42,116 bases of DNA, taken from positions 1-42,116 of IMG/VR virus record IMGVR_UViG_3300048592_000613; one strand, written 5' to 3'. Positions 12,702 to 40,338 of the stretch are shown here, in pieces. Source of the DNA: a virus. The notes below the pieces were generated by a model. That model was given only the letters and a program-made list of their open reading frames with translations, was not told the DNA's origin and did not search any database. The position numbers and the translations under genes were made by a program. The number at the start of each line of letters is the position of its first letter. The stretch's first letter is position 1.

Positions 12702-13278
12702 CGATGCTCTTTATATCGCTGAATGGCTGCGGGACGAGATGAAGCCTGCGTGCGCACGGATCGAGATCGGAGGCGGGGTGAGGCGCGGCAAGGCGGATGT
12801 GCATGACATCGAGATCATCGCTGTGCCGTTGTTCATTCCGACGCGCGATCTATTCGGCACGGTCATTTCGAATGAAAATCAGTTGGACGCCATTTTGTGC
12901 GAGTTGGAAGGATTGGCAGCGTTGAAGCGGGTCAAGGGCGGGGAGAAATTCAAGCAGTTCGAGATCGGGCGCTGGGAAGAGTTTGCGATTCAACGTCCCG
13001 ATCAGTCGTTCAAGCTGGACCTATTTCTGGTTACACCTCCCGCTTCATGGGGCGCGCAGTTTGTAATCCGCACGGGTCCCGCCGAATTCAGCCAGTGGAT
13101 GGTGACGAAAAAGATGCTGGGCGGAGCATTGCCGGATCATTGTTACGTCAAAGGCGGCGCAATCTGGGATGGCAGGGACGGGAGCAAGATCGAAATGCCG
13201 GAGGAGACGGATTTTTTCCGCTTGTGCGGGTTGGATTGGATCGAGCCGGGTCAACGCGCGGCGAGGTGGAAGCGATGA
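12691..13278 (+). CDS. PolX-like nucleotidyltransferase (195 aa)
   Basis: The palm signature GGGVRRGKADVHDIEI (from residue 27) contains the Gly-Gly/Arg element of DNA polymerase beta and an acidic pair (Asp39, Glu41). A third acidic residue is in KLDLFLV (Asp110). The following FVIRTGPAEFSQWM corresponds to the PolX FxxxTGS...fN region that binds nucleotide. It is shorter than bacterial PolX and lacks the 8-kDa and PHP domains, so it is a minimal polymerase-like or nucleotide-transfer enzyme. Its stop overlaps the intI start (ATGA), which ties it to the integron. Confidence 0.7.
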   Translation: MMYNDALYIAEWLRDEMKPACARIEIGGGVRRGKADVHDIEIIAVPLFIPTRDLFGTVISNENQLDAILCELEGLAALKRVKGGEKFKQFEIGRWEEFAIQRPDQSFKLDLFLVTPPASWGAQFVIRTGPAEFSQWMVTKKMLGGALPDHCYVKGGAIWDGRDGSKIEMPEETDFFRLCGLDWIEPGQRAARWKR

Positions 13279-14270
13279 AGATGAACTCTACAGAAGCCAG
13301 AGAGCAATTTGCCAAATGGCTTGAGGCGAAGTTTTACAGCAAAGGGACAGTCGATTCTTATGTGCCGTCAGTTCCCAGCTTCTTCAAGTTTCTTGGGTCT
13401 CACCCTGATGTTGTGGGACTGTCGCACTCGAAGCGCGTGGAGGCATATCTATCGAGCAGGGTGGTCGAGGATGACATAGCCGCATCCACCCAGAATGTGG
13501 AACTGACGGCGTTGGTGCAATTTCACCGTATGTTGGGTATCGAGTTGACGGGCATCAACGCCTTGCGCGCAAAGCGCCGCGACCGCATTCCGCCCATCAT
13601 GTCCAAAGAGCAAGTGAAGATTCTGATCGAAAACTTTCCGCATGAATTCAGGCTGGTTCCGATGATCCTTTACGGCTGCGCCATGCGGATCAATGAATGC
13701 CTTCGGCTCAGGATAAAGGACGTGGATTTATCCCTGAAGAAATTCGTCATCCACGAAGCGAAAGGAGACAAGGAGCGCGTTGTATCCATCCCAAACAGTC
13801 TTATCCCTTACGTTAAAATTCAGTATGACAAAGCCGTTGCCATGTGGGAGATCGATAAATACCACACGTTCAACGGTGTCAATTGCAGAGGCGTGGAGAA
13901 GAAATACCCGTCCTATCCGATGTCGAGAGATTGGTATTGGTTTCTCCCTGCCGCCTCATATTCAACAGATCCAAAGTCGCATACGCCGATGATGAGGCAT
14001 CACACGATGGACTGGACGATACAGCGGATGTTTGAAGATGTCCGTGGTCGTTTCCATCTCCCGGTCTATGCGACGCCGCACATCCTGCGCCATGCCTGCC
14101 TCACCCATATGACGGAGGACCTGATCGGGAAAGGATTTACAGAAACGATGATCAAAGCAGAATTAAAGAAGTTGAGCGGGCATGTCATGGACGAAACCTT
14201 GGAAGGGTATATCCACCTGGCGACTCCCAAGAATGTTCATATTGTTTCTCCCATCGAAGGACTTGTATAG
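13275..14270 (+). CDS. intI: Integron integrase (331 aa)
   Basis: A tyrosine recombinase with Arg138 (AMRIN), His269 and Arg272 (PHILRH), His303 (LSGH) and nucleophile Tyr312 (EGYIHL). Between the first Arg and the HxxR box it carries the extra domain that separates IntI from Xer and phage integrases: VEKKYPSYP, then W-Y-W-F-LP, STDPKS and RHH (about residues 207-250), which correspond closely to the same landmarks in IntI1. Length is that of IntI proteins. It is coupled to the PolX-like gene and transcribed toward the cassettes, the reverse of classical integrons. It would excise and insert cassettes at attI and attC. Confidence 0.93.
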   Translation: MKMNSTEAREQFAKWLEAKFYSKGTVDSYVPSVPSFFKFLGSHPDVVGLSHSKRVEAYLSSRVVEDDIAASTQNVELTALVQFHRMLGIELTGINALRAKRRDRIPPIMSKEQVKILIENFPHEFRLVPMILYGCAMRINECLRLRIKDVDLSLKKFVIHEAKGDKERVVSIPNSLIPYVKIQYDKAVAMWEIDKYHTFNGVNCRGVEKKYPSYPMSRDWYWFLPAASYSTDPKSHTPMMRHHTMDWTIQRMFEDVRGRFHLPVYATPHILRHACLTHMTEDLIGKGFTETMIKAELKKLSGHVMDETLEGYIHLATPKNVHIVSPIEGLV

Positions 14271-18632: not shown

Positions 18633-19352
18633 ATGACTAACGGACGATTGGACCAGCCAGTTTATCAACTCCCCATGCCGCTTCAGGGCGTGGATGATGC
18701 GATTCAGGGCGAAGTTCTATCTCCTCGTGAAGCTGCGTTTGCAGCTCTTTCTGTTTTGCGTGTGAAGGAACCCATCACCGATAAGGTTCGTGAGCGGGAT
18801 GATAAATCTGGGAAGACTGTCGAGCGAGATGTAGTGATCGGTCAGCGCGAGATTGCGCCGCGCTGGATGGAACTTTTCCAAAAATTGCTCGAAGGCGGCT
18901 GGCGCTGGGAGATCGCTGTTTATATTGCCTGGCGTGCCATGCCGAGAAAGTACCGCTTCCCTGAAACGCAAGATGAACTTGCGAAGCAATGCCTGGGGTT
19001 GTCTTCAGACCGCGCGATTGCAACATGGCGCAAGCGCAATCCGTTTATCGATGAATACATCACGATCTTGCAGGGTGAGCTTGTGTTCGATGCTGTGCCG
19101 GATGTGCTGAATGCGGCTGTGGAAGTTGCATCTACTCCAGACTACAAAGGCAATGCAGATCGAAAGTTGGTGCTCGAAATGGCAGGACGTTATACACCGT
19201 CCTCGAAGATCACGACAGAAATGGCGAAGAAGCTGGTCAACAGCAAGCCGGATGATCTGGAAGACCTGAGCGATGATGAATTGCGAAGGATCGAAGAGAC
19301 TGTGGCGGTTGCCCGCAAGAATAAGCAGGATGAGGAACCGAGCGAAGCATGA
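18633..19352 (+). CDS. Terminase small subunit candidate (239 aa)
   Basis: The middle part (residues 75-145) has a helix-turn-helix-like pattern: PRKYRFPETQDELAKQCLG, then a recognition-like helix with TWRKRNPFI. This resembles homeodomain-like small terminase subunits. The C-terminus is acidic and Lys-rich (DDLEDLSDDELRRIEETV). Its stop overlaps the large subunit start (ATGA). The assignment rests mainly on this position. Confidence 0.7.
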   Translation: MTNGRLDQPVYQLPMPLQGVDDAIQGEVLSPREAAFAALSVLRVKEPITDKVRERDDKSGKTVERDVVIGQREIAPRWMELFQKLLEGGWRWEIAVYIAWRAMPRKYRFPETQDELAKQCLGLSSDRAIATWRKRNPFIDEYITILQGELVFDAVPDVLNAAVEVASTPDYKGNADRKLVLEMAGRYTPSSKITTEMAKKLVNSKPDDLEDLSDDELRRIEETVAVARKNKQDEEPSEA

Positions 19353-20956
19353 ATTCGGCAGCCTTACTTACGCGTGATCCGTTATTAGCCAAAGCCGAGC
19401 GTGCCAGGCGTGAATTGGCGCGGCGGCATTTGATCAATTTCAACGCGTATATTTCCCCGGACTATAACTGGACTTTGCCGCATCTGAATTTGCTTGCCAA
19501 AAAATTGGAAGAGGTTGAACTTTTCATCCGCACCAAGGGCGAGCAGGGCTGCGGGCGGTTGATCGTGATGATGCCGCCCCAGCATGGCAAGACAGAAACC
19601 ATTACGAAGCATTTTTCCGCGTGGCTCTTGGGACGCAACCCAAACACGCGCATTATTTTGGGATCGTATAACGATGAGACCGCAACTGAGAACAGTCAGC
19701 GGGTGCGTAATATGGTCATGGATGATGAGTTTGCAAAAATATTCGGACGAAAAAGCCGATATGCAACCATTGACCGCGATGTGCAGGTCTCGGAAGATTC
19801 AAAGGCGAAAAAGAATTGGGATATCGCCGGTTTTCGCGGCGGCTGCCGTTCGGCAGGTGTAGGCGGCGGTATTACAGGCAAGCCTGCGGATGTGATTGTC
19901 ATTGACGACCCGCATAAAGACCGCGACGATGTGACGTTTACAAGCATCCAGCGCGTGATCCGCTGGTGGAATTCTCAGGTGGTTTCCCGTATCCGCAAAC
20001 GGACTGCGGTCATCATTGTGCATACACGTTGGGACCCGGATGATCTGATTGGCTCGCGTTTGAAGCTAATGGTTAGCGGCAAGAAACATGCCGATCAGTG
20101 GGATGTGCTTTGCCTTCCGGCTGTGGCAATGGAACCGAAGGAATATGCACCGAACGAGAAGGTGCAGCGCGAAAAGCTCGAACAAGGAATCTGGCTGGAT
20201 CTGTTTGATCCACTCGGACGGAAGCCCGGCGAGCCGCTTTGGGCTGACGAGCATCCCCTGGAGTTGTTGGAATCGAAGCGGGCGAACGATGAGTTCGAAT
20301 GGTGGGCGATGTATATGCAGCAGCCACGCCCATTGACCGGCGGATTTTTCGAGCGGGATGATTTCGAGATCGTTGACCGGCAGGATGTACCGGAAGGGAT
20401 TCAGTGGTTCCGCTACGTTGACCTGGCACTGTCTGAAAGTTCCACCGCCGATTACAACGCCACCGTTGCGGTTGGTATGGACCCGAAGAATGGCGATGTG
20501 TACTTGCGGGATATGCTGCGCTTGCGTGGTTGGATGAACTTCCGACCGCTGTTGATCGAATCGATGCTGTCGGACAAGGAACACGGCACGGTCTGGGGCA
20601 TCGAGACGGTTTCGTTTCAGGCTCTGGCGTTTCAGGAATTGGTTCGTGACCCGCGCCTGGCAAAAATACCGATGCTGGACATCAAGCCGGAAGCCAGCAA
20701 GGGACAACGAGCACAACCGTTGCGGTTGCGCGGGAAGAACGGTCAGTTGAAGTTGGTGAGGGGAGCATGGAATTCCGCATTTATTGATGAGGCTGTTTTA
20801 TTCAAGCCGGATGGAAGCAAGCGCGACGATCAAATCGACACGGGCAGCGGCGGCTTGCAGATGATCGCTGATTTGAGTTATGGCACTCAGAAGACTGCCA
20901 GCAGCGAAGCGACGGTTGTGCAGATCGAAAGCATGTTCACAGGCAGTTATCAGTAG
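19349..20956 (+). CDS. terL: Terminase large subunit (535 aa)
   Basis: The DNA packaging motor. Walker A is MPPQHGKT (residues 75-82) and Walker B VIVIDDP (182-188), preceded by the GGGITGKPAD segment usual in this family. The C-terminal RNase H-like nuclease shows its first Asp in RYVDLALSES (near residue 356). Length is normal for TerL. It would bind the portal (26187) and cut the packaged genome. Confidence 0.93.
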   Translation: MNSAALLTRDPLLAKAERARRELARRHLINFNAYISPDYNWTLPHLNLLAKKLEEVELFIRTKGEQGCGRLIVMMPPQHGKTETITKHFSAWLLGRNPNTRIILGSYNDETATENSQRVRNMVMDDEFAKIFGRKSRYATIDRDVQVSEDSKAKKNWDIAGFRGGCRSAGVGGGITGKPADVIVIDDPHKDRDDVTFTSIQRVIRWWNSQVVSRIRKRTAVIIVHTRWDPDDLIGSRLKLMVSGKKHADQWDVLCLPAVAMEPKEYAPNEKVQREKLEQGIWLDLFDPLGRKPGEPLWADEHPLELLESKRANDEFEWWAMYMQQPRPLTGGFFERDDFEIVDRQDVPEGIQWFRYVDLALSESSTADYNATVAVGMDPKNGDVYLRDMLRLRGWMNFRPLLIESMLSDKEHGTVWGIETVSFQALAFQELVRDPRLAKIPMLDIKPEASKGQRAQPLRLRGKNGQLKLVRGAWNSAFIDEAVLFKPDGSKRDDQIDTGSGGLQMIADLSYGTQKTASSEATVVQIESMFTGSYQ

Positions 20957-21010
20957 CAATGAGATTGCTTCGCCGCATAGACCAAATGCGCGGCTCGCAA
21001 TGACATAAGG
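20957..21010. repeat. Host-type intergenic repeat
   Basis: The spacer reads CAATGAGATTGCTTCGCCGC ... GGCTCGCAATGACA, an inverted-ended word (GATTGC/GCAAT) that I recognise as an interspersed repeat type in bacterial genomes. Here it fills the gap between terL and the capsid gene, ending at the ribosome site AAGGAGAG. Confidence 0.5.
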
Positions 21011-21021
21011 AGAGTGATGCA

Positions 21022-23637
21022 ATGAAAAAGAAAATCGGCAAAGGAAAAGTGATCGAGGAGCTGGTAAAGGGCAGCCTGGATTACACCGTGCAGAGCATCC
21101 GTGATGCGTTTTGGAAACAGTTCAGCGACGCTTCGGGCAGTTTTTATATTGCGGAGATGTTCGCAGATTATGTGATCGTGAGCGGCTGGGGCGAGAAGTG
21201 GACGTTGAAGGCGGATGAGTATTACCGCGTGCCGTACACCCGCGATGGCGAAAGCATCACCTTTGCAGCTCGTGATGCATGGGAGATCGTGGAGCTGACT
21301 TATCAGCCGCAGACGGTGATCACCGAAAGCAAGAAGAAAAGCGGGACTCGCTTCGAGGAGGCTATCCAGCCTGGGCAGATTGAACTGCTGGAGGCGAAGG
21401 ATGAAGCGAAGGGGACGCGCCGCATCCGTATCAATAATTTGGTTGTGGCGAATGTTGTCAATGGTAATAAACGTTTCTATGAACCTGAGATCATTGAAGC
21501 GATGATTGCGGACTGGCAATCTCATCTTCACGAGAGCGCAGGGCAGGGACGTTTGAAGATACTGACGGGTGAGGCAGATCATCCAACCGACAAGGGCAGA
21601 AAACGTTCGGAGTTTCTTGAGACAGTGGTCCGTTGGGACAAACTGGATTGGGATGGTAAGCGGCTCGATATTGAGGGCGATCTTATCTTGACCAGCAAGG
21701 GACGCGACGTTGAGATCCTGATGGAGGCTGGCGTAACGCCTGGCGGCAGTATTCGTGGTGTGGGCGAATCGAAACTTGAATCGATGAACGGTCAGAAGGT
21801 TCAGAAAGTTTTATGGCTTTCGATGACTGGGGTCGATCTGGTTGGCGATCCGTCGTTCAAAAATTCTGCTGAATTGCAGGAATCTATTACACAAACAGGA
21901 GATGAGGCAATGAACCTCGAAGAGCTTTTGAAACTTTTGCGTGAGCACCCGGATGCATTTGCCGGTATCACGGAAGCCCAGATCAAGAAGATGGGCGATG
22001 AGCAGTTGAAGAAACTGGAAGAAAGCCTGCGCTCGAAGCTGGGCATTGGCGCGGATGCCGATATTGCCAAGGCTCTCGATGAGAGCATGGATAAGGCTCG
22101 CAAGTTCGATGAAAGCCAGAAGAAGGCGGAAGTCGAAACCGCGATCACCGAGGCGACCAAGGACCTGCAGTTTGGTAAGGAACTTAACGAAGCGTTCACC
22201 GAGTCCATCAAGGATGGCAAGTTCGAAAGCGCCGAAGAGGTGAAGACCTTTGCGGAGAGCCAGCGCAAGGTGTTTGGCAAGCTGGCTGCGAGCGCCAAGT
22301 TGAAGGGCATGGGCTTCAAGCCCGGTTCCGGCATTCAAATGATCGGTGATGTGCTGGAGAATGAAACCGGCACGCCCGAATTTGCGCGTGTGGCTTTCGA
22401 GTTGAGCGAATCGGTTCGCAAGCATGAGAAACGCGCCAAGCGCACGTTGGTTCTACGCGCTGAAAGCCCCGCTGCTGTTTTAACCGAAATGTTGTTGGAG
22501 AAATTCGACAAGCAGTTCCAACGCCAGTTGATCGCCGAGGCAAAGGCGTTTCAAGAGGCAGAGAGCACTTCCGATCTGAATCTGCCTTACAGCGTGAGCC
22601 GCACAGTGATCGCAGAAGCATACCCGAACCTGGTAGCTGCCAATGTGTTTGACTTTGGCATTATGGATCAATCGCCGATGAATATCTTTTACGAGACCTT
22701 CACCGGTGAAACGGGCTTCACCGTGGCGATCACTGATGAGGTGGAAGCCTTGGGTGCAGAAGATACCTGGTATGACCTCGCGCAAAAGAACATCGTGCCT
22801 GGCACCGTTGTTGTGACCAGCAACCCCGCGGGCACCACCTACGTGGAAGGTACTGATTACGTGATCGATTACGAACTCGGCAAGATCCGCGGGATTGCGG
22901 CAGGCGCCATCGATGCCAACGATGTGTTGGTTGACTATTCGTACCATGCCACCCGCAAGGGTGAGGATACCGAAATCGAACGTGCCAAGACCACGCTCGT
23001 CTACCAGACCATCACCGCAGCTGCTGACCGCCTCTCTGACTACATCACCAACGAGGCGATTGTCTTCAGCCGCTCACAGATCGGTTGGGATGCGGTTGGT
23101 CGCACGATGGCGAATATCATCCGCGAAATGCGCCGCGATAAAGATCGCCGCTTGATCGAGAAGGCGTTGGCGGCTGCACTTTCGGTCGCGAACAACAAAA
23201 CCGCCGCATGGGATATCAGTGATGCTGTTTATCTGGATCTGGTGAAGCGCATCGGCGAAGCGAAGGTGAAAGTGATTAACCGCTTCTATACCCCAACCTC
23301 CCTGCTGATGAGCGCGACCAACTCGGATTACCTGAGCAATTGGGACGGTTTCACTCGTGACGGTTTCCCGAACGCAATGCTGAATGCCGCTGGTTTCGTT
23401 GGCAGAGTGAAGGGTTTGGATGTCTTTGAAACCCCGGAAATGCGTGATGCGTTCAACCTGGTACTGAACCGCGAACTTGTGATGCACCGTATTTTCTCGC
23501 CGATGACCGTTAAAGGTCCCTTCCATACAACCAGCAATGGCAAGTTGGTTGCTGCCGAACAGTATTACGCGGAAGAATATAACGCTTCCCTCGCGCCGAT
23601 TGGCGGCAAGGGCAGTGTTGTACCGACACAGGCGTAA
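21022..23637 (+). CDS. Fused prohead protease, scaffold and major capsid protein (871 aa)
   Basis: Three head functions lie in one frame. Residues 130-290 look like a T4 gp21-type serine protease: His187 in GEADHP, Ser243 in GGSIRG, and Asp in VDLVGDPSF. Residues 297-475 are charged, helical and coiled-coil-like, as in scaffolds. Residues 480-871 resemble a capsid protein (LPYSVSRTVIAEAYPNLVAANVF; TGETGFTVAI; SQIGWDAVGRTMANIIREM). A strong ribosome site with in-frame ATG at 21910 (Met297) would yield a scaffold-capsid product without protease, like the Nu3 start in lambda gene C. The protease presumably cuts capsid from scaffold. Residues 1-130 are unassigned. Confidence 0.85.
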   Translation: MKKKIGKGKVIEELVKGSLDYTVQSIRDAFWKQFSDASGSFYIAEMFADYVIVSGWGEKWTLKADEYYRVPYTRDGESITFAARDAWEIVELTYQPQTVITESKKKSGTRFEEAIQPGQIELLEAKDEAKGTRRIRINNLVVANVVNGNKRFYEPEIIEAMIADWQSHLHESAGQGRLKILTGEADHPTDKGRKRSEFLETVVRWDKLDWDGKRLDIEGDLILTSKGRDVEILMEAGVTPGGSIRGVGESKLESMNGQKVQKVLWLSMTGVDLVGDPSFKNSAELQESITQTGDEAMNLEELLKLLREHPDAFAGITEAQIKKMGDEQLKKLEESLRSKLGIGADADIAKALDESMDKARKFDESQKKAEVETAITEATKDLQFGKELNEAFTESIKDGKFESAEEVKTFAESQRKVFGKLAASAKLKGMGFKPGSGIQMIGDVLENETGTPEFARVAFELSESVRKHEKRAKRTLVLRAESPAAVLTEMLLEKFDKQFQRQLIAEAKAFQEAESTSDLNLPYSVSRTVIAEAYPNLVAANVFDFGIMDQSPMNIFYETFTGETGFTVAITDEVEALGAEDTWYDLAQKNIVPGTVVVTSNPAGTTYVEGTDYVIDYELGKIRGIAAGAIDANDVLVDYSYHATRKGEDTEIERAKTTLVYQTITAAADRLSDYITNEAIVFSRSQIGWDAVGRTMANIIREMRRDKDRRLIEKALAAALSVANNKTAAWDISDAVYLDLVKRIGEAKVKVINRFYTPTSLLMSATNSDYLSNWDGFTRDGFPNAMLNAAGFVGRVKGLDVFETPEMRDAFNLVLNRELVMHRIFSPMTVKGPFHTTSNGKLVAAEQYYAEEYNASLAPIGGKGSVVPTQA
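21897..21912 (+). promoter_or_regulatory. Internal ribosome site and start within the capsid gene
   Basis: AGGAG (21897-21901) lies eight bases before an in-frame ATG (21910-21912), which begins MNLEELLKLL at the protease-scaffold junction. Translation from here gives a 575-aa scaffold-capsid protein. Confidence 0.75.
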
Positions 23638-23692: not shown

Positions 23693-24331
23693 ATGACCAC
23701 TCTTGCAAATCTCTTATCTCAATTGCAATCAGAAGTTCCGGCGGTGAATAGCGTTCCGACGACGACGCAGTACACGCAGGCGATCAAGGATGCGGCGGCG
23801 GAGTTTTCGCGCCGCTGCGGGTTGACGAAGTTTGCGGAGTTGTCCATCGTCTCAGGCACTGCGGCGTATGACCTGCCCGCGGATTTTTTGAAACTGGTGA
23901 TGCTGGAAAACCTCGCCGGGGCGGATGGGGTGATCCTCTCGGATGCGGGCATCATTCCGATTGCCGCGGATTGGGAAGAGACGTATCAGATCGTGAACAA
24001 GGTCATCAAGTTTTCGCCCACCCCGACCTACACGTTGACGCGCGATTACCGCTACAAGGCGGCGTGGATCCTGACGGGCGGCTCGGGCAGTGAGACCTAT
24101 GCGGACATGGGCGACGATGAGGCGCAGGTGGTGATGTTGAAAGCGCGTCAACTGGCAACGGAGAAACTTTCGAATGCGCTGGCATCGAGCGGGGGGCAGT
24201 ATTCCTTCGGCGCGGTATCTGTGAACAAGGGCAGCGGGATGGACTCGCTGGTCAAGCAGGTCTATTCGTTGCAGGGTCAGTTCATCGAGGCGTGCGAGCA
24301 CTACAACGGCGCGAGATTGGAGATTTCGTGA
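23693..24331 (+). CDS. Head-tail connector (adaptor) candidate (212 aa)
   Basis: An N-terminal helical part (YTQAIKDAAAEFSRR), a central part with YDLPADFLKLVML, and a C-terminal helix fit the architecture of gp6/gp15-like adaptors; PADF after a beta strand is common in these proteins. It follows the capsid gene, the usual place for connectors. Its TGA overlaps the next ATG by one base. Confidence 0.6.
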   Translation: MTTLANLLSQLQSEVPAVNSVPTTTQYTQAIKDAAAEFSRRCGLTKFAELSIVSGTAAYDLPADFLKLVMLENLAGADGVILSDAGIIPIAADWEETYQIVNKVIKFSPTPTYTLTRDYRYKAAWILTGGSGSETYADMGDDEAQVVMLKARQLATEKLSNALASSGGQYSFGAVSVNKGSGMDSLVKQVYSLQGQFIEACEHYNGARLEIS

Positions 24332-26186: not shown

Positions 26187-27467
26187 ATGGTCACATTACG
26201 AGATCGCATCAACGGATTTTTGAAACCGCCCAAGCCGCAGGAGACGACGGCGGAGGTGAAAGCCACGCCGGGCGGGGATGCGACGGTTGCCGTGTACGAA
26301 AAAATGAAGGCGGATCGGGACCGCGCTGCGATCATCAAGACCTGCCGCTCCATGTACGAGACCGATCCGCGTGTGAAGAAGGCGTTGCGGACGTACGCCA
26401 CAGATGTGGTGCGCTCCGGTTATTTTGTGAAGACGGCGGATGCGCAGGCGTTGGAGATCGCGCAGGCATTGCAGAAGCGGCTGGGGTTGAATAAAAAATT
26501 GCAGGATGTGACGCGCCTTTCTGGGCGTGATGGCGATTCATTCTACGAAGTGGTGGTGGATGACGATATGAATATCGTCAAACTTTCTCGCAAGCCCACT
26601 TTGCAGATGCGACGCGCCAGCAATAATTACGATGAGTTCGATAACCCGCAAAAGGCGTTTTGGCTGGCTCCTGAAACGCAGTACAGCCCGGAGCCGGGGA
26701 AGGATGCGATCTGGTTTGCGAAGTGGCAGATCATCCACCTGCGGTTTGACCATGACGAGGAGAAACGTTATGGCACGCCGATGTGGGCATCCGCGACCGG
26801 CGCATTCAAGAGGGTGAGTGAGGGCGAGATTGACATCTCTGTGCGGCGCAAGGTTCGCGCGGGGATGATCCTGCATCATGTCGTGGAGGGGTCGCCATCG
26901 GATATTGACGCATACAAGGAAAAGAACGCGGCGGCGGAGAATAATCCGTTTGCGGCGGTGCGAAATTATTACACCAATAAGCCTGGCTCGATCAGCGCGA
27001 TTCAGGGCGACGCGCACCTTAATGAGATTGCCGATATTGTGCATCACATCGAGACGATGTTCACAGCGAGCGACATTCCGATGGAGCTGGTGGCTTACGG
27101 CGGGGACCTGAACCGGGATGTCCTCGGAGAGAAGAAGGAAGAGTACGACGAAACGCTCGATGACGGGCGCGAATGGCTGAGTGAAGAATTCCTGAAACCC
27201 CTGCATGAATTGCAGTGGATGTTGAAGGGCATTTATCCGCAGGACCTTGATTACAAATTTATCTGGCGCAAGGCGAAGAGCCTGACGCCTGTGATGCTGA
27301 GGGACCTGGCGGATGCGTTGATGCGGATACGGGTGCTGGGCGCGAAAGAGGAGTTGATCCAGTCGCTTCTGGCGCAGTTCGTGCCGGGTGTGGATTTGGA
27401 TATTTTGCAGGGCGACGGTTTGGACAGCACGGCGTTTGCGAATAATTTGAAAGGGCTATCGATTTAG
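26187..27467 (+). CDS. Portal protein (426 aa)
   Basis: The portal forms the dodecameric DNA channel at one head vertex. Supporting features are the GDSFYEVVVD strand near residue 112, the KWQIIHLRFDHD segment before a YGTPMWASATGAFKR helix, and the helical C-terminus with DRGRE-like stem residues (TLDDGREWLSEEF). Length fits. It comes after the capsid and connector genes and just before a MuF-like gene, instead of directly after terL. Confidence 0.82.
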   Translation: MVTLRDRINGFLKPPKPQETTAEVKATPGGDATVAVYEKMKADRDRAAIIKTCRSMYETDPRVKKALRTYATDVVRSGYFVKTADAQALEIAQALQKRLGLNKKLQDVTRLSGRDGDSFYEVVVDDDMNIVKLSRKPTLQMRRASNNYDEFDNPQKAFWLAPETQYSPEPGKDAIWFAKWQIIHLRFDHDEEKRYGTPMWASATGAFKRVSEGEIDISVRRKVRAGMILHHVVEGSPSDIDAYKEKNAAAENNPFAAVRNYYTNKPGSISAIQGDAHLNEIADIVHHIETMFTASDIPMELVAYGGDLNRDVLGEKKEEYDETLDDGREWLSEEFLKPLHELQWMLKGIYPQDLDYKFIWRKAKSLTPVMLRDLADALMRIRVLGAKEELIQSLLAQFVPGVDLDILQGDGLDSTAFANNLKGLSI

Positions 27468-30053: not shown

Positions 30054-30590
30054 ATGACAGACGATTTCAAAAACAGGCTTGAACGCGCCAAGGCGATGCG
30101 GCGCGAGACGATTGCAAAGTTTCGCTATGAGCAGGTGAAAGAGATGCCCGACCCCTTGCCCGACAGCGGGTTGAAAGTGTTCCTGCGCGAAGCCAGCATG
30201 ATGGACTTGGTGTTCAGCGGTAAACTGCCCGAACCGCTGGTGGATGCGATTCAATCTGCAAGCAAGGACAAGCAGGATGTTGACCTCAAAAGCCTTGCCC
30301 GCAACGGCGCGGAATTTTCCAAGATGGTCGAAGGCTTGATTCTGATGACCGTGGTGGAGCCGCCGATTGCTGAAAAAGCGGACGACGACCACATTGGCAT
30401 TGCCGAGCTTTCCGCCAACGACCGCATGGCGATCTTCAACTGGTTGAACAGGGAGAAGAATTCTTTAGACTCCTTTCGCGGCGGACAAGATGAACTTGTT
30501 CCGCCTGCACAACCTGGCAGCGGCATACAACCAGAGACCGAGCCAGGTCTTGGGGTTGGAAACGGAAATGGCAGCCTGGGCGCTGGATGA
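30054..30590 (+). CDS. Tail assembly chaperone, gpG-like (178 aa)
   Basis: Between the tail tube and tape measure genes, where lambda has G and GT. The product is charged, with LKVFLREASMMDLVFSGKLPEPL, and ends in a Pro/Gly-rich tail (GLGVGNGNGSLGAG) that looks like the non-shifted end of a frameshifted gene. A second ORF overlaps in the +1 frame. CAGAGGAAA is the ribosome site. Confidence 0.72.
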   Translation: MTDDFKNRLERAKAMRRETIAKFRYEQVKEMPDPLPDSGLKVFLREASMMDLVFSGKLPEPLVDAIQSASKDKQDVDLKSLARNGAEFSKMVEGLILMTVVEPPIAEKADDDHIGIAELSANDRMAIFNWLNREKNSLDSFRGGQDELVPPAQPGSGIQPETEPGLGVGNGNGSLGAG

Positions 30591-30747
30591 AGCCTGCCTG
30601 ATGGTGGGCAGGCGCGTGGAGAATAACCTCGCGCAGGATAAACCGCCCTTCGACGGCTTTGAGTTGCCCGCAGAAAAAATGGCGAACGGGTACAAAAGCA
30701 CAGGGCATAAGCCTGTGAAGAAAGCCCAACTGGATTTTTTGAAGTGA
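30469..30747 (+). CDS. gpT-like extension in the +1 frame
   Basis: The frame opens after a TAG at 30466-30468 and contains LFRLHNLAAAYNQRPSQVLG, then MAAWALDEACLMVGRR, a compact helical segment typical of the second tail chaperone. Its only ATG (30490) has no good ribosome site, so a +1 shift near TCC-TTT-CGC (30471-30479) is likely, making a G-T fusion. Independent start at 30490 is the alternative. Confidence 0.6.
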   Translation, partial: TPFAADKMNLFRLHNLAAAYNQRPSQVLGLETEMAAWALDEACLMVGRRVENNLAQDKPPFDGFELPAEKMANGYKSTGHKPVKKAQLDFLK

Positions 30748-38664: not shown

Positions 38665-38704
38665 CCAATAAAAGAACCGCCCATGAGGGCGGTTCTTTTA
38701 TTGG
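38665..38704. terminator. Bidirectional terminator between tail operon and integrase
   Basis: An 18-bp perfect stem (CCAATAAAAGAACCGCCC, 38665-38682, with its complement at 38687-38704), loop ATGA. A-rich and T-rich flanks let it stop transcription from both sides. It overlaps the stop codon of the serine recombinase on the minus strand. Confidence 0.92.
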
Positions 38705-40338
38705 TGGGAAGGATGTTTCGTCCGTACGTGAAACTCCACCTTGAGAATGTGCCTATATAAAGGCGGTCCCGACGGGGTTAGGAATATAGACACATCATCC
38801 TCCCAGCCGGGACCGTGGGCTTTTGGGAGCGGTACCGGGGGATAGTAGTAATAAATTACGCCATAGAGCATTTTATCTTCGCGGCGGACTTCTACGTGGT
38901 CTACGACCAGGCGCAGGAGCAGACGCTGTGTGTCGAGGTCTGCGGCGGCGAAGGCTCTGGCAAAATTGACGGCGATGTAGGCGAGGATGTCTGGGGGAAT
39001 TGCGGGGATGGGTTCGATGGCGGAAGCGTCCAGATCGGCGAGCTGGCTTTCGAGATCGGTTTCGTCCATCTCGAGTTCTTTGAGGCGTTTGGCGGGGGCT
39101 TTGGCGTCTCTGCCGAGATCTTCGAGGAGCGACATCAGATTGGTGATCTTCTTTCGGACGGTAGCAAGCCGGGTCTTGAGGTCGAGCCGTTTTTCCGTCT
39201 GTTCGACAAGGATTTTGGCAGAATCAGATTTCAGTTGTTCGTAGGCGGCGAGGAGATTTTCCGGTTTGAGGGCTACGCTGGTGAGGGTGGTCACGACCGC
39301 ATTTTCGACCGTCTCGCGTGGGATGCGGCTCTTGGTGCAGTCGCGTTTGCGATAGGCACGGGTGCAGAAGTAGCTGTCGTAGGTCTTGCCGCTCTTTTGC
39401 GGTGAGCTGCGACCGAAGAGGGGCGAGCCGCAGAGGGCGCAGCGACCGATGCCGCTGAGCAGGAAGCGCGATTTGGCGCGGCGGGGATGGTCCATGGAGT
39501 CAGTGGCGACGTGCTTGCGGCGGGCGTAGTGGTTTTGGACGATCTGGACTTGATCCCACAGCTCGGGGGTGACGATGGGTTCGCAATAATTTTCGAAGAC
39601 CATCTCTCCAAATGTGAGGGTGCCTTTGTAGATGGTGTTGGCGAAGAAGGTGGAATAGGAGTTGATGCCGCTGTATAGTTTTGTTTCTTTGTGGATATCG
39701 CCCAGGGAGATGCGACGCGCTCGCATTTCGAAGGCTCGCCTGACGCGGGGGATAAAATCTGGATCTGGAAGCCATTTGTGGGCGATGTGAGGCGTGCCGT
39801 CGCGCCGCAGACCGATGGTGACAGGTTCGCGCATAAATCCGCGCGGATGACTGCCGGGCACGCATCCATAGCGTTCGACAAGGTTTTGTAAGCCGCGTTT
39901 GACATCGAGGGAGAGGTCGGTGAGATATTGTTCATCCTTGAAATCAATGGCGGCTTCGAAGAGGCGACCCATGGGACCGTCGGGCACTTTGTCGTTCATG
40001 GAGTGGAAGATGTAGCCGAGGGTGCGGATTTCGGCGCGGAAGAATTGGGCGTTATCGACGGAGCGGGCGAAGCGGTTGTACTTCCAGACGACGACGCCGC
40101 GCTCGCTGCACTCGTGGCGGAAGGCGTACATCATGGCTTGCAGCTCGTCACGTTTGATGACGCTGGAGCCGCGCTTGGCTTCGTCTTTGTAGATGTGGGT
40201 GATGACGAGGTTATGTTCGGCTGCCCATTTACGCAGGGAGGCTTCCTGCTGTTCGATGGACAGTTCCTGGTCTTCGTGACCACTGTCGCGCAGATAGCCG
40301 AAGATGCGGTCGCCGGGGGAGAAGGGGATTTTGGTCAT
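38698..40338 (-). CDS. Large serine recombinase, probable phage integrase (546 aa)
   Basis: The catalytic domain (residues 1-150) has the nucleophile in GYLRDSG (Ser19), EQQ nearby, and Arg residues in KYNRFARS (the family normally has DRxxR). A recombinase domain follows, then a zinc ribbon (CALCG ... CTRAYRKRDC, about residues 300-335) and a coiled coil (about 370-440), the order typical of large serine integrases. It is in the lysogeny module and divergent from the late genes, so it is the best candidate for integration and excision. No attP core could be identified. Confidence 0.9.
   Translation of the reverse strand: MTKIPFSPGDRIFGYLRDSGHEDQELSIEQQEASLRKWAAEHNLVITHIYKDEAKRGSSVIKRDELQAMMYAFRHECSERGVVVWKYNRFARSVDNAQFFRAEIRTLGYIFHSMNDKVPDGPMGRLFEAAIDFKDEQYLTDLSLDVKRGLQNLVERYGCVPGSHPRGFMREPVTIGLRRDGTPHIAHKWLPDPDFIPRVRRAFEMRARRISLGDIHKETKLYSGINSYSTFFANTIYKGTLTFGEMVFENYCEPIVTPELWDQVQIVQNHYARRKHVATDSMDHPRRAKSRFLLSGIGRCALCGSPLFGRSSPQKSGKTYDSYFCTRAYRKRDCTKSRIPRETVENAVVTTLTSVALKPENLLAAYEQLKSDSAKILVEQTEKRLDLKTRLATVRKKITNLMSLLEDLGRDAKAPAKRLKELEMDETDLESQLADLDASAIEPIPAIPPDILAYIAVNFARAFAAADLDTQRLLLRLVVDHVEVRREDKMLYGVIYYYYPPVPLPKAHGPGWEDDVSIFLTPSGPPLYRHILKVEFHVRTKHPSHQ

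Follow-up and report, generated by a model that had tools for sequence, protein, structure and literature searches.

We identified, in a virus contig of 42116 bases (IMG/VR record IMGVR_UViG_3300048592_000613; this whole stretch is referred to here as the window), an open reading frame at 21022-23637 that, by sequence matches and predicted folds, joins a protease of T4 type with a scaffold-like part and a capsid protein in one gene. At the border between the protease and the scaffold-like part the frame holds a second start codon, Met297, preceded by a Shine-Dalgarno sequence, and the conservation of this start in sequence comparisons indicates that it is more than a chance occurrence. We infer, with a probability of about 0.8, that the gene would give two nested products, one comprising protease, scaffold and capsid and the other scaffold and capsid, which would co-assemble and both be cut to the same mature subunit.

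Organization of the fused gene

The 871-aa frame begins with ATG on the plus strand. Its upstream neighbor is the terminase large subunit gene (19349-20956), and downstream lie an SU10-type adaptor (23693-24331), a portal-like protein (26187-27467) and tail genes. Relatives were located on other virus contigs and on seven assembled-genome contigs, five of which were labelled Anaerolineales or Anaerolineae. The features of the gene are as follows.

21007..21012, plus strand: Shine-Dalgarno sequence AAGGAG of the upstream start, read from the sequence, 9 nt from the ATG at 21022, pairing -13.5 kcal/mol
21022..23637, plus strand: whole ORF, predicted protease-scaffold-capsid polyprotein, 871 aa
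21022..21318, plus strand: optional N-terminal domain, residues 1-99, with a weak NTF2-like resemblance in the model; absent from 15 of 85 loci
21337..21879, plus strand: T4 gp21-type prohead protease, residues 106-286, assigned by Pfam, PDB profile match and fold comparison
21580..21582, plus strand: codon of H187 (GEADHP), predicted catalytic His, invariant and aligned to the His of PS2 gp21
21748..21750, plus strand: codon of S243 (GGSIRG), predicted catalytic Ser, invariant and aligned to the Ser of PS2 gp21
21880..21885, plus strand: E287-S288, predicted self-release site of the protease; hydrophobic-x-E-[ASGT] in 88% of 67 sequences (gp21 motif as given in the available text of PMC9026906)
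21897..21901, plus strand: internal Shine-Dalgarno sequence AGGAG, 8 nt from the ATG at 21910
21910..21912, plus strand: internal start ATG, Met297, supported by conservation across orthologues and by column scans
21910..23637, plus strand: nested ORF, predicted short scaffold-capsid product, 575 aa, from sequence and model
21910..22557, plus strand: helical scaffold-like part of the model, residues 297-512, rich in L/I-x-E (4.36 motifs per 100 aa against 1.98 expected)
22555..22560, plus strand: E512-A513, predicted scaffold-capsid cleavage site; E in 67 of 67 sequences, fitting neighbors in 93%
22558..23634, plus strand: predicted HK97-fold major capsid protein of T4 gp23/gp24 type, residues 513-871, by fold comparison of the model

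Elsewhere on the contig, a tail assembly chaperone-like gene (30054-30590; phrog_4336, phrog_6280) is overlapped by an ORF at 30490-30747 that lies in another frame and stays open beyond the end of the gene, an arrangement known from the programmed frameshifts of tail assembly chaperone genes. The virus also encodes two recombinases, one a tyrosine recombinase (12897-14270, plus strand) and the other a large serine recombinase with a zinc ribbon (38698-40338, minus strand).

Protease, scaffold-like and capsid parts

The initial annotation had proposed that three parts share one frame, and had taken GEADHP and GGSIRG as marks of a T4 gp21-like protease; Pfam and the predicted folds agree with both proposals. 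Residues 140-281 matched Peptidase_S77 with 34.4 bits against a cut-off of 27, and two relatives scored 48.0 bits (L219) and 41.3 bits (L227). When residues 1-300 were searched against PDB profiles, T4 gp21 (5jbl, E 5e-12) was the sole match up to an E value of 1. The predicted model of these residues (pLDDT 80.6) aligned with the T4 gp21 fold (5jbl_B) at Z 15.6 over 152 residues with an rmsd of 3.1, the next matches being herpesvirus proteases at Z 5-6. H187 and S243 were invariant in 66 sequences. In Serratia phage PS2 gp21 they align with GELNHP and PGVSSRG, and in the 5jbl chain each falls opposite an Ala. We take these two to be the catalytic residues of a gp21-type protease.

It had been asked whether residues 1-296 might be unrelated in relatives. 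Every relative whose sequence reached far enough upstream had the protease part. Residues 1 to about 108, however, form an optional module of their own: no match to residues 1-99 was found at 15 of 85 loci, some of which are fragments. In the fold comparison the NTF2-like resemblance of this N-terminal domain reached a Z of up to 5.0. GP15 of Geobacillus virus E3, encoded two genes past the terminase, is similar to residues 22-95 of the fused protein; its own best PHROG match is a family of unknown function.

Structure prediction, suggested earlier as a check on the parts, gave a capsid fold of HK97 type in addition to the gp21 protease fold. The model of residues 297-871 consists of a helical part followed by an HK97-fold shell protein, with moderate scores (pLDDT 77.2, pTM 0.58). 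The closest capsid fold was T4 gp24 (7vrt_he; Z 19.3, 243 aligned, rmsd 2.8), and HK97 itself (2gp1_A) gave Z 16.9. The capsid part had no Pfam capsid match and no capsid protein among its PDB profile matches, and its assignment is made through the predicted fold only. No sequence link was found between the scaffold part and T4 gp22. Within the capsid part, residues 569-645 (22726-22956) match phage tail tube or major tail proteins (phrog_807, Rhodobacter phages); they also match NF052337, below its cut-off, and SprA. By sequence this stretch is perhaps an inserted beta domain common to capsid and tail proteins.

Whether relatives split the gene had also been raised. Scans that used either the whole-gene alignment or the capsid sequences of divergent relatives turned up no cleanly split gene among close relatives. 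One locus (L211:2262-4448) has the protease motif and the capsid part in one frame and the middle piece in another; we read it as an assembly error or a broken copy and left it uncounted.

Conservation of the internal start

The claim of a strong AGGAG with an in-frame ATG at Met297 was confirmed and extended to relatives. A start codon with a Shine-Dalgarno sequence was present at the border in all 83 orthologues of the first set, 81 times as ATG and twice as GTG, the two GTG loci (L048 and L058) each having AAGGAG at the site. The number is 83 because a fragment (L019) and a locus in two frames (L075) were left out before counting. Outside the discovery set, the internal start was found in seven of seven loci on assembled-genome contigs (one of these, L087, seems to duplicate the contig of L061 in the first set) and in 27 of 27 further relatives from the capsid-part scan. 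That scan yielded 35 new loci, out of which 27 were scored, seven were cut at the 5' end (L225, L230, L240, L245, L253, L255 and L270) and one, L211, was frame-broken. Each viral-contig scan retained 80 of its confirmed relatives, from 151 with the whole-gene alignment, 147 with divergent capsid sequences and 169 in another scan, so the counts cover the retained relatives only.

We also scanned the alignment columns of 66 non-redundant orthologues having residues at Met297. In 98% of them a start codon with a Shine-Dalgarno sequence occurred no more than 3 columns from Met297 (residues 295-298), while other positions averaged 3.1% with a maximum of 37%. Under a second definition the internal start again reached 98%, and the highest other inner value was 42%. 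In the terminase of the same phages, which served as a control gene, inner positions averaged 4.4% with a maximum of 42%. The codon aligned to Met297 was ATG in 62 out of 67 sequences, GTG in 2 and CTG in 1, with gaps in 2. Predicted pairing with the anti-Shine-Dalgarno sequence averaged -9.3 kcal/mol for the best ATG of the border stretch in the 83 orthologues, compared with -3.3 kcal/mol for the other in-frame ATGs of the same genes (n=1373), and a 4-base Shine-Dalgarno match preceded 99% of the former and 31% of the latter.

These counts bear on the idea that only the long form is made, as a single polyprotein whose self-cutting frees protease and scaffold, leaving protease and capsid at 1:1 and the internal start idle. 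The frame is indeed open throughout, the upstream Shine-Dalgarno sequence is strong (-13.5 kcal/mol), and cut-like motifs lie at the domain borders. This explanation does not, however, account for a start and Shine-Dalgarno sequence kept in 83/83 and 27/27 relatives and steadier in the column scan than the annotated start itself (98% versus 86%), and we regard it as improbable.

At the nucleotide level, the Shine-Dalgarno core falls in either of two codon phases, read as Gly or as X-Glu (50 and 32 of 82 loci). The rate at which the same residue is encoded by the same codon was highest at residues 293-294 (0.747; mean 0.511, sd 0.058). The window's mRNA has little structure near either start: folding energies are -4.0 and -4.4 kcal/mol there, compared with -10.8 (sd 3.3) on average. 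Randomization of synonymous codons in single sequences gave a median p of 0.32, with 1 of 66 sequences below 0.05 and 27 of 66 below 0.2; such single-sequence tests are weak because Gly-Asp and Glu-Asp codons easily yield a Shine-Dalgarno sequence, and we kept this one out of the main evidence. Its automatic assignment apparently took an upstream GTG for L017 and L081, and missed L082.

One could suppose that the start is inherited from ancestors with separate protease and capsid genes, such as T4 has, and that today it is hardly used, or not at all. The gene order, which matches T4 genes 21-22-23 and the separate genes of PS2, would fit such a history. A remnant of this kind sits poorly with a start that even relatives of only about 43% identity retain, as either GTG or ATG and with its Shine-Dalgarno sequence in either of two codon phases, and with codon conservation that peaks at the internal start region; we think it very unlikely. 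Less plausible still is that the Shine-Dalgarno-like stretch initiates nothing and acts by slowing elongating ribosomes, giving the protease time to fold ahead of the scaffold. The stretch does follow closely on the protease domain, but a pause requires no start codon at a fixed spacing, and 64/67 sequences have ATG or GTG at the aligned codon; in a second family of fused genes (the Circum/1706 type, described below) ATG, GTG or TTG stands at the border in 72/72. We therefore favor initiation at Met297, with two nested products.

Proposed nested products and their maturation

Initiation at the ATG at 21022 would give the protease-scaffold-capsid polyprotein of 871 aa (about 96 kDa), and initiation at the ATG at 21910 would give scaffold-capsid alone, 575 aa and about 63 kDa. 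Since the long and short forms have their scaffold and capsid parts in common, they would be expected to co-assemble, the protease being carried inside the procapsid. During maturation the gp21-like protease would release itself near E287 and cut the scaffold off near E512. Both forms would then end as an identical mature capsid subunit of about residues 513-871, and the protease-bearing form would be cleared along with the scaffold.

T4 gp21 cleaves after L/I-x-E, according to the available text of PMC9026906. The density of such motifs per 100 aa is about double the expected value in the parts predicted to be removed (scaffold 4.36, protease 3.09, N-terminal domain 2.17); in the mature capsid part there is no enrichment (0.70 per 100 aa, 0.78 expected). 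Conserved Glu residues with a fitting neighborhood lie at 124, 287, 463 and 506/512, mostly at or near domain borders. Two more stand at 102 and 412, and three (171, 200 and 532) are within folds. The motif by itself does not prove cutting, because the conserved L/I-x-E-like motifs at 171, 200 and 532 sit inside folds, and the cuts near E287 and E512 are predictions from sequence.

The initial annotation had further proposed that the internal start would give much scaffold-capsid and little protease, and here the data lent no support. In the window the predicted pairing is stronger at the upstream start than at the internal one (-13.5 versus -8.7 kcal/mol), and the family medians are close (-8.8 kcal/mol, n=42, for the upstream start and -9.3, n=65, for the internal start). 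A plain protease-capsid fusion would give protease and capsid protein at 1:1. The HK97 procapsid is described as having about 60 proteases per 415 capsid proteins (available text of PMC12749128), and that of T4 about 100 per 960 (available text of PMC5694885).

Border starts in other protease-capsid fusions

A second family comprises the fused S78 protease-capsid genes of Circum, Gordon, Streptomyces phages and Lactococcus phage 1706. Its 87 loci reduce to 72 non-redundant members, and in 69 of these a start with a Shine-Dalgarno sequence lay at Circum residue 239-242, just before a MSRNVFEQ-type sequence; the gene mean was 4% and the next-best place reached 33%. Stricter Shine-Dalgarno motifs lowered the value to 86%. 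All 72 carried a start codon at the site, 69 of them ATG, 2 GTG and 1 TTG. Circum gp12 has another strong internal AAGGAG-ATG at residue 165 (L093:3529-3531), nearer the protease end, which was not conserved in the family scan.

In a third family, that of the small phages Maggie and RRH1, 15 genes were scored and 13 had residues at the border place. Nine of these 13 had a border start, located at Maggie residue 158-162; the background averaged 2% and did not exceed 13%. EpicDab, Emperor and L188 had no clear start there, Berka had a weak one only, and Schiebs and PensacolaC28 have start candidates elsewhere.

Neither of these SEA-PHAGES fusion families (phrog_3270, phrog_2263) showed detectable sequence similarity to the window gene (hhalign E 0.58 and 0.055); by blastp the best E value of the window against Circum was about 5, and Maggie was not among the matches listed. 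The two families have a related S78 protease (hhalign E 4.8e-6), so they are perhaps not two independent fusions, and we count at least one, perhaps two, further origins. phrog_94 and phrog_4523 may be further fusions; neither had a match within the window's own record.

Probably a border internal start has evolved repeatedly and is a general trait of the fused protease-capsid genes of tailed phages, giving a pair that would function like retroviral Gag and Gag-Pro, in which a minor, protease-bearing form co-assembles with the plain form. If this is true, several hundred deposited genes annotated as major capsid and protease fusions hide a second, more abundant product, and the annotation of a well-populated phage gene class would change; for Circum gp12 there are 244 matching phage records, and for Maggie gp7 there are 82. 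The conserved internal start would also offer a direct, testable answer to the question of the protease:capsid ratio in fused phages.

Comparison with known systems

The fused gene has in common with T4 genes 21-22-23 the protease type, the protease-scaffold-capsid order, the predicted gp23/gp24 capsid fold and L/I-x-E-like motifs. In the T4-like Serratia phage PS2, genes 21, 22 and 23 stand in the same order but are separate, whereas the window gene is a single frame. T4 gp21 has an internal start of its own, Met45, which gives a shorter gp21 (available text of PMC9026906); that start lies within the protease gene, unlike Met297 at the protease-scaffold border.

HK97 has its protease, gp4, in a separate gene, whereas that of the window is fused in frame. 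The delta domain of HK97 gp5 is a scaffold fused to the capsid N-terminus and removed by the protease (available text of PMC12749128), as we propose for the scaffold part here. A P2-type fusion joins protease and scaffold, with the capsid gene separate (available text of PMC10612066).

A 2017 paper (PMC5513430) described the fusion of protease and capsid protein in Arthrobacter clusters AM, AU and AN and in Rhodococcus RRH1; its available text mentions no internal start. These fusions resemble the window gene in having protease and capsid in one frame, and a border internal start was found there too; they differ in being of Peptidase_S78 rather than S77 type and are without detectable sequence similarity to it. 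For EpicDab, an ATG before the protease is discussed in the available text of PMC9671378, a different place from the border start. Gene 30 of virus Rctr41k (KX853513) is a direct homologue (54.6% identity over 98%) and carries an internal AAGGAG-ATG; it is annotated as 'putative phage capsid protein and protease', with one product only. The available text of Gambelli 2016 reports a prohead protease in one phage genome and does not name Rctr41k. The protease-capsid fusion is thus already in print; in the open-access literature we found no report of a conserved start at the protease-capsid border, and within that literature this start is the new part.

The nearest precedents for nested products are lambda C/Nu3 and herpesvirus UL26/UL26.5, in which a protease-scaffold protein and the scaffold alone are made in the same frame, the herpesvirus short form from its own transcript. 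The initial annotation had extended the lambda idea to the capsid protein itself. The window gene has the lambda-like trait of a same-frame internal start with a ribosome-binding site at a domain border, its short product being predicted. In lambda and the herpesviruses the part shared by the two products is the scaffold only, whereas in the window gene it includes the capsid protein.
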